64,000 nucleotides of DNA from Kosmotoga olearia TBF 19.5.1 (GTDB taxonomy: Bacteria > Thermotogota > Thermotogae > Petrotogales > Kosmotogaceae). This document shows positions 48,338 through 49,827 of the stretch, in pieces (position 1 is the stretch's first letter; every line of letters begins with the position of its first letter). The stretch covers positions 868,001 through 932,000 of the forward strand of contig NC_012785.1 of the NCBI RefSeq assembly GCF_000023325.1. Reading direction: 5' to 3'. The notes beneath the pieces are model-generated. The model did no database searches and was not told the DNA's origin. It was given only the letters and a program-made list of their open reading frames with translations. The translations under genes were made by a program, and so were the position numbers.

Positions 48338-49525
48338 ATGAAAGAATTATTGAAAAAGATTGCGAAAGTTTATGGGACACCAGTGTATGTGTATTTTGAG
48401 AAAGAGATCAAAAACCGTATAGACAACGTTTTAGGAGTTTTTGAGGGAATAAATGTTTTTCCAACGTTTGCTGTGAAAGCAAACAACAACCCCCACTTAT
48501 TGAAGGTCATTTACAATAAAGGCTTCGGGATGGATGTAATTACCCCGGGAGAGCTTTATGCTGCAAAATTGGCAGGTGCTTCGCCTGAAAAACTGGTATG
48601 GAACGGTAATGGAAAAACAGAAACAGACATAAAGAAGTTCATTGGAAGCGTGAAATATGTGAACGTAGATTCTTTTGAAGAAATGGAGATCTGGAAAAAG
48701 AAAGAAGCAAACGTTGAATTGTTTATCAGAGTGAATCCCAATATAGATGCGCGTACACATCCTCATATCTCCACTGGTCTAAAAAAACATAAATTCGGTA
48801 TCCCGTTGGATAAACTCGATGAATTTCTGAAGAAATTCCCCGATAACCGAATCAAGGGATTACACGTTCATATAGGATCTCAGATAACCACCGTTGCCCC
48901 TTTCGTTGAGGCGTTCGAAAAAGTCTCTGAAGTATCGAAAAAATATGGATTTGAGAAGATCAACATTGGTGGGGGATGGGGAATAAATTACGATGGAAAG
49001 GAGCTGGATTTATTAGAATACAGGAAAAAAGTTGTCCCGCTTTTGAAGAATTTCAAGGAAGTTATATGCGAGATCGGCAGGTACATCATTGGCCCATCAG
49101 GGATTTTATTGTTAAAGGTTCTGAACTTAAAAAAGACTGATGACAAATATTTTGTTGTTGTGGACGGAGGAATGAATACTTTAATCAGGCCAGCACTTTA
49201 TGGTGCGCATCATGGTATCAAGATTCTCGAGCCCACTGCTTTATCCGGGAAAATAGATATAGTCGGTCCCCTTTGCGAATCTGGAGATAAGCTGGCATGG
49301 GATATAGAAATAGAGTTACCTGAAGTCAGCAGTTTGTTGTACGTTGAAAACGCAGGAGCGTACGGATTCTCAATGTCTAACAACTACAATTCTACCCTCA
49401 GGCCAGCGGAGGTACTGGTAAAAGAAAACGGTGAAATAGTATTGATAAGGCGAAGAGAAACTTTAAATGATCTGTTTGGAACAGTGCAGAGAACCGAGAT
49501 CCGAGAACCCGAGAATCCGAGATAG
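48338..49525 (+). CDS. lysA: Diaminopimelate decarboxylase
   Basis: 395 aa PLP enzyme making lysine from meso-diaminopimelate. PLP lysine in [16 protein letters not shown], glycine loop [26 protein letters not shown], and active-site CESGD and [23 protein letters not shown] after TTAGGAG. The normal C-terminus seems to end around [11 protein letters not shown]. The last ~10 residues ([11 protein letters not shown]) and the TAG are read from the terminal repeat of hairpin element H, so the insertion replaced the native stop. Confidence 0.95.
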
Positions 49526-49827
49526 CCGCTTCGCGGCAGATAAGAACCCTTCGGGATTGTTACGACCGGCTACGCCGGTGTTGCGAACTCCTGCGGAGTT
49601 GTCGCGAACTGCTTCGCAGTTGACATGCGCCTGCGGCGGATTAAAGCATGTTCTATTCCGGCTCGAAGAGCCGTATGGCCGTGACGAAGTCACGCATAGC
49701 CTGGGCAGAGCCTAGCACAGCCACTGCGAAGCAGCGCACAGCGTCTGCAAACCTCAACCTCGTGAGCGTCCGGAGCGTAGCTCCGCACTTCAGCAGCGTA
49801 GCTGCTATCTCGGACTCTCGGTTCTCA
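49490..49827. repeat. Hairpin-array repeat, copy H (338 bp, full length)
   Basis: Bounded by inverted ends related to GAGAACCGAGATCCGAG (left) and CTCGGACTCTCGGTTCTC (right). Inside are at least twelve mini-hairpins with 3-nt loops. They include CCGC-TTC-GCGG, four 21-bp units starting 49544, 49565, 49586 and 49607 (last three ACCGGC-TAC-GCCGGT, AACTCC-TGC-GGAGTT, AACTGC-TTC-GCAGTT), CGGCTC-GAA-GAGCCG, GTGAC-GAA-GTCAC, CTGC-GAA-GCAG, CGGAGC-GTA-GCTCCG and GCAGC-GTA-GCTGC. Between convergent lysA and dacB. Confidence 0.92.

Follow-up and report, generated by a model that had tools for sequence, protein, structure and literature searches.

Tandem arrays of 21-bp hairpin units in Kosmotoga olearia and the group IIC introns that lie in them

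Intergenic regions of the Kosmotoga olearia genome hold tandem arrays of a 21-bp unit whose stems covary and which are absent from the sister-species junctions that were compared, and every group II intron detected in the genome lies at a unit boundary. The arrays are a dispersed non-coding repeat family of the Kosmotogaceae. It is probable that they are landing pads for group IIC introns and are otherwise selfish or neutral DNA, the second part of this reading being the less firm. The hairpins would form in exposed single strands or in RNA. An endonuclease-less group IIC intron requires a stem-loop motif for reverse splicing, and a folded hairpin would provide it; if the hairpins do serve in that way, the arrays would be landing pads outside genes that can be used again and again. 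Palindromic repeats between bacterial genes are ordinary, and the intron class is a known one; two things are unusual, the hairpins set in a strict 21-bp register and uniform in polarity within an island, and the exclusive use of the arrays by a group IIC intron.

The repeat unit and its arrays

The window analysed here is a stretch of 64,000 nucleotides (868001-932000) of the single K. olearia contig, and coordinates refer to it unless marked as genome positions. Its main copies, named D to I, are:

49490..49523, + strand: left tail of H, CCGAGA-type repeats, with its inverted-repeat partner at 49790-49838
49524..49640, + strand: TNC arm of H, units at 49524, 49565, 49586, 49607 and 49626, with stems AGCCGC, ACCGGC, AACTCC, AACTGC and TGCGCC in that order
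49659..49806, + strand: GNA arm of H, units at 49659, 49680, 49701, 49722, 49771 and 49792
49807..49828, + strand: right tail of H, TCTCGG-type repeats
61320..61663, + strand: I, full-length copy, occupying the gap from a permease stop codon to the next ribosome-binding site
19376..19683, - strand: E, inverted and diverged copy, beginning 13 bp past the prfA stop
8873..9125, - strand: D, variant between convergent genes, units in 8988-9087
29850..30214, + strand: F, variant, five-unit TNC arm at 29878-29977 and two GNA units at 30178-30214
31628..32175, no strand assigned: G, variant, degenerate TNC units followed by a GNA arm at 32079-32156
49490..49525, + strand: element-derived C-terminal extension of lysA, with the stop codon inside H

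The sequence-only reading from which this work set out had recognized H and I as nearly identical full-length copies, E as inverted and diverged, and D, F and G as variants, and all of this stands: blastn of 49481-49840 returns 61320-61663 with 92.5% identity over 348 columns, E matches H at 19683-19435 with 80% identity, and D, F and G give partial matches. The ends of H are inverted repeats, as had been said (49491-49540 against 49790-49838, 80% identity), and the relics placed near 2821, 6023 and 7948 exist as tail or short fragments only. The composite of ~340 bp that had been taken for the element is found as H, I and genome 965126-965462, about three full-length copies with a TNC arm and a GNA arm, but this is a minority form, most array copies being single arms. 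The series of 9-16 bp hairpins described there does have 3-nt loops, but it reduces to one 15-nt palindrome (6-bp stem, 3-nt loop) and a 6-nt spacer, set in a 21-bp register.

Loop and closing pair are almost always C-TNC/TNT-G or the complement, and the spacer is of the GNNNCG type. Spacing is exactly 21 bp in 184 of the 229 neighbouring unit pairs that lie no more than 24 bp apart. Perfect units that have a neighbour 21 bp away number 248; the closing pair is C-G in 233 of them and the loop, read on one strand, is TNC or TNT in 241. These units have 32 different stems, and stem types recur in a shared order (AGCCGC, AATCCC, ACCGGC, AACTCC, AACCAC, AACTGC, TGCGCC), the loops varying independently. 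Arrays comprise 2-11 units, with tails in which CCGAGAA-like words are strung together. The examined parts of the genome contain 73 array clusters with 370 units, and H has 88 matches across the whole genome (2,302,126 bp), so that refutation of the family for want of further copies falls away; with ~14% of the genome read directly, these copy numbers are lower bounds. Comparisons between species are of one genome each, with gene calls from a simple codon score.

There are 61 such palindromes (6-bp stem, 3-nt loop) in the window, against 24 in dinucleotide shuffles. Predicted folding of H gives z-scores of -5.2 for DNA and -5.7 for RNA, surpassing 100 of 100 shuffles both ways. DNA mini-hairpins of the d(cGNAg) type are stable. 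In 33 arms that were picked for resembling H, without regard to pairing, 97.4% of cells are Watson-Crick and 11 of 29 stem pairs show two-sided changes. Such changes occur in 89 cells, where shuffles reach 38 at most, a count that is inflated by shared ancestry and by slot changes some of which are swaps of whole units for paralogous ones. As far as sequence comparison can tell, the hairpin structure of the units is maintained.

No protein is encoded, as had been proposed. Coding heptad repeats (21 bp being seven codons, with a frame open through part of I) were considered and rejected: spacings of 19 and 20 bp break the frame, the open frames across the elements match no protein family, and the covariation falls on stems. 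No Rfam family scores above its gathering threshold in the window, and no publication on these repeats was found, the Kosmotoga genome papers that were searched being silent on them (the original genome paper was outside the search). A search for a phage, virus or plasmid origin gave no match. An origin outside the Thermotogota was also rejected: an exact two-unit pattern, for which we estimate about half a chance match, matched an Acidobacterium and a Bacteroidota contig, neither of which has 21-bp arrays. The Bacteroidota MAG does carry short palindromes with 3-nt loops (L107, 1560-1840), irregularly spaced and outside the 21-bp register. In many K. olearia intergenic regions (genome 1909600-1909830, for example) other dispersed repeats, the families TCATCCTGAACTTGATTCAGGATCTC, GTTGTAGGTTGTACGT and GCTTGCAGACGCTG/CTCACGAGGTTGAGG, are interleaved with the arrays.

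Judged from parts of the papers describing them, some repeats that are like these in habit are organellar, the RHE of sponges (PMC2800124) and the palindromic repeats of green algae (PMC7235400), which are likewise short, GC-rich, proliferating between genes and perhaps mobile; the arrays differ from what is described there in being bacterial, ordered in tandem, fixed in loop type and targets of an intron. They may be regarded as a bacterial counterpart of those repeats, with an unusual polarity around an island.

Group II introns at unit boundaries

Group II introns found beside arrays at three loci led to a search of the whole genome, which returned 11 introns with an RF02001 core (73-107 bits; RF00029 is also matched in 6), a count that would miss any copy devoid of that core. 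At the 5' junction all 11 follow an array-type hairpin and 6 further nucleotides, and begin with GTGTGCCCGG (the start sequence in K. olearia is GTGTGCCCGGCATG). Two of these hairpins are slightly off consensus, one having a 4-nt loop and the other a 5-bp stem, and one of the 11 introns follows an AAA-loop hairpin with reverse polarity. The 3' end (...CTCGAT) directly precedes another hairpin unit, sometimes an imperfect one, in 10 of the 11; in the single exception tail sequence comes next. From the density of sites, the chance of 11 out of 11 insertions falling on array sites is ~1e-24.

Five copies encode a reverse transcriptase/maturase of 462-467 amino acids, and six, of ~630-770 bp, are devoid of a notable open frame. 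The protein has RVT_1 and GIIM domains only, an endonuclease domain not being detected, and its best PDB match is the GsI-IIC reverse transcriptase (1.3e-87). By their RF02001 core, their domain content, this match and their insertion at stem-loops, the introns are assigned to group IIC. Group IIC introns have no endonuclease domain, and their targets are terminators and attC sites (PMC4424553; PMC7923331); for insertion at intrinsic terminators and attC, PMC4424553 points to Robart 2007 and to Leon and Roy 2009. The K. olearia introns resemble these in being endonuclease-less, in having a stem-loop upstream of a short IBS1 and in their copies at many loci. They differ in their target, a tandem hairpin repeat that is spread through the genome and is not a terminator or an attC site; the offset is fixed at 6 nt, and another hairpin unit follows on the 3' side. 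Because all 11 lie at that offset from an array-type hairpin and all but one are followed by a unit, the arrays join terminators and attC sites as a third kind of natural target of group IIC introns. No paper linking K. olearia to group II introns was found in the literature searched. The arrays thus present a natural case of a group IIC intron shifted to an abundant repeat, and the constancy of the offset, together with the dozens of natural unit variants, makes the target-choice code of group IIC introns directly testable.

Dependence runs in neither direction. Kosmotoga pacifica and Kosmotoga arenicorallina have arrays, and the RF02001 intron was not detected in their genomes; arrays are therefore independent of the intron, and homing cannot maintain them. 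Conversely, related introns in other Thermotogota of the order (Fervidobacteriaceae-like) follow terminator-like hairpins with T-rich tails, and those of Mesotoga follow a different repeat hairpin, so that the arrays are not required by the intron, which exploits whichever stem-loop repeat abounds. (The label Mesotoga, for genomes G007 and G009 and the other members of group g4, is drawn from kinship.) G009 has 18 related intron copies, and the five that were examined (L142, L146, L151, L155 and L158) follow hairpins of the GTCATNCTGAGCTTGACTCAGAATCTC or ATGCCGGACCTGATCCGGCATCTC type, a second repeat family serving as landing site.

Two perfect palindromes of 38-39 bp, at genome 1384185-1384223 (L166) and 1355117-1355154 (L063), lie at array unit boundaries and consist of the last ~19 nucleotides of the intron and their complement; they look like products of snap-back reverse transcription. 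One could suppose from them that the intron's reverse transcriptase makes the palindromic units by snap-back copying, the arrays being both its products and its targets, all the more as the terminal hairpin of the intron can have a 6-bp stem and a 3-nt loop. This is highly improbable: arrays occur in genomes in which the intron was not detected, only these two relics were found, and the stems of the units are unlike the intron.

Junctions and neighbouring genes

Where K. olearia has I, the corresponding gap in three sister genomes is filled by ~150-230 bp of unrelated sequence and is free of arrays; after prfA, two sister species have a classical intrinsic terminator where K. olearia has E. 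The native intergenic DNA is missing; it was replaced, not split, and none of H, I, E and the 965-kb copy shows a target duplication. The comparison of orthologous junctions, which had been proposed as a check between strains, was made with sister species and showed junctions free of arrays, but no target duplications. Of the proposal that the elements are non-autonomous mobile DNA, one part survives: they are dispersed and non-autonomous, with near-identical copies far apart and array-free junctions in sister species. The other part, a classical inverted-repeat transposon with target duplications, does not. The inverted-repeat tails and the three near-identical full-length copies are what one would expect of a MITE-like element whose terminal inverted repeats are cut by a DDE transposase, but tail length and register vary with the CCGAGAA runs and are not fixed terminal repeats, most copies have a single arm, and the lack of duplications and loss of native DNA fit such cutting poorly; we consider this origin most improbable.

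Arrays are found in every class of intergenic gap, whether convergent, tandem or divergent, which speaks against the other half of the earlier proposal, a general 3'-UTR module. That the arrays are structural modules of 3' UTRs, acting as terminators or stabilizing the 3' ends of mRNA, is suggested by the copies of the window, most of which start about 60 bp or less from a stop codon, and by E taking the place of the prfA terminator; arrays no more than 100 bp from a gene mostly face its 3' end. Genome-wide, however, it is the 3' end of the tail-side gene that is turned towards the array in 44 cases and the 5' end in 34, and the tight link to gene 3' ends that was at first entertained is weak once these copies are counted. 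The units are not followed by a U-run, the spacer being GNNNCG-like and not what defines an intrinsic terminator, and polarity goes by side of the island described below and not by gene direction. This function is accordingly quite unlikely. At lysA the array has entered the reading frame: the final residues and the stop codon come from H, and the alignment with homologues stops at residues 381-388 of 395.

In sum, the earlier interpretation is partly supported; it had noticed neither the 21-bp unit nor the polarity, nor the connection with group IIC introns.

Polarity, cassettes and RAYT-like genes in a 180-kb island

Between 1.28 and 1.46 Mb of the genome lies an island of 42 array clusters with 188 units. 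To the left of 1.342 Mb all 17 clusters have G polarity; to the right of 1.377 Mb 21 of 25 are pure T, three are mixed and one is G. Polarity follows the side of the island, independently of gene direction. Outside it, 10 clusters are G, 8 are T and 13 are mixed, the arrays being mixed or symmetric, and a genome-wide replichore bias was rejected, uniform polarity being limited to the island. A replication origin is possible near the flip (1342000-1377000), since the minimum of cumulative GC skew (1.374 Mb) is close to it and third-position skew differs by side, being positive to the right and near zero to the left; dnaA, at 1.2 kb, is far away.

In K. arenicorallina (G006, contig C2, 303000-311907; L080) arrays bound cassettes with AbiE toxin-antitoxin genes, a DUF234 ATPase and an HTH/IrrE-like gene. 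K. olearia and K. arenicorallina share 97.9% identity in the ATPase block, which has its breakpoints at array tails, at a genome ANI of 84% (PMC5674127). These array-bounded ATPase and AbiE cassettes, together with the uniform polarity and the presence of one array to a gene or operon, recall recombination sites of a cassette system. Integron attC arrays are likewise uniformly polar hairpin sites between genes into which IIC introns insert, but each array site here has many hairpins, and an integrase was not found among the genes scanned in the centre of the island. Arrays outside the island are mixed or symmetric, moreover, and homologous recombination between repeats explains the shared blocks equally well; an attC-like role is rather improbable. 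If the arrays are landing pads that are selfish or neutral, they might have multiplied through strand-specific copying at replication forks and through recombination of one copy with another, and this spread might move neighbouring genes as array-bounded cassettes, both steps being put forward with less assurance than reverse splicing into hairpins. Arrays and intron might even co-evolve in the single-stranded DNA of forks, with strand-polarized landing pads, boundaries for cassettes of defence and island genes, and palindromes added by the reverse transcriptase through snap-back copying. That is very unlikely, but if true, target sites would multiply as the intron moves.

Two RAYT-like Y1_Tnp genes lie inside the island (genome 1341656-1342367 and 1355255-1355984), in blocks that are 95% identical over 839 bp. 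Y1 transposases use the lagging strand, and arrays could be REP-like elements mobilized in trans by a RAYT that handles hairpins of the lagging-strand template; insertion that is strand-specific would leave polarity uniform on either side of the island, as observed. Array DNA or a remnant lies on the 3' side of both genes, one of which adjoins an array, and one array lies beside a RAYT remnant in Mesotoga. Like REP and BIME served by RAYT (TnpA_REP), the arrays are short intergenic palindromes in many copies in a genome with a RAYT-like gene, but they are strict 21-bp tandem triloop units with many stems. RAYT is the best NCBIfam model, but with a score of 67, below the cut-off of 80; most Mesotoga RAYT loci have no array, and no guide tetranucleotide was identified. 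The flanks of both genes carry a separate repeat of their own (GGGGACTGTCCCCATTTTC; GGGGAC...GTCCCCATTTTC), so that the connection between arrays and RAYT is only a lead, and mobilization by RAYT is unlikely. The first of the two loci (1341656-1342367) shares DNA with K. pacifica, including an APH-like kinase gene.
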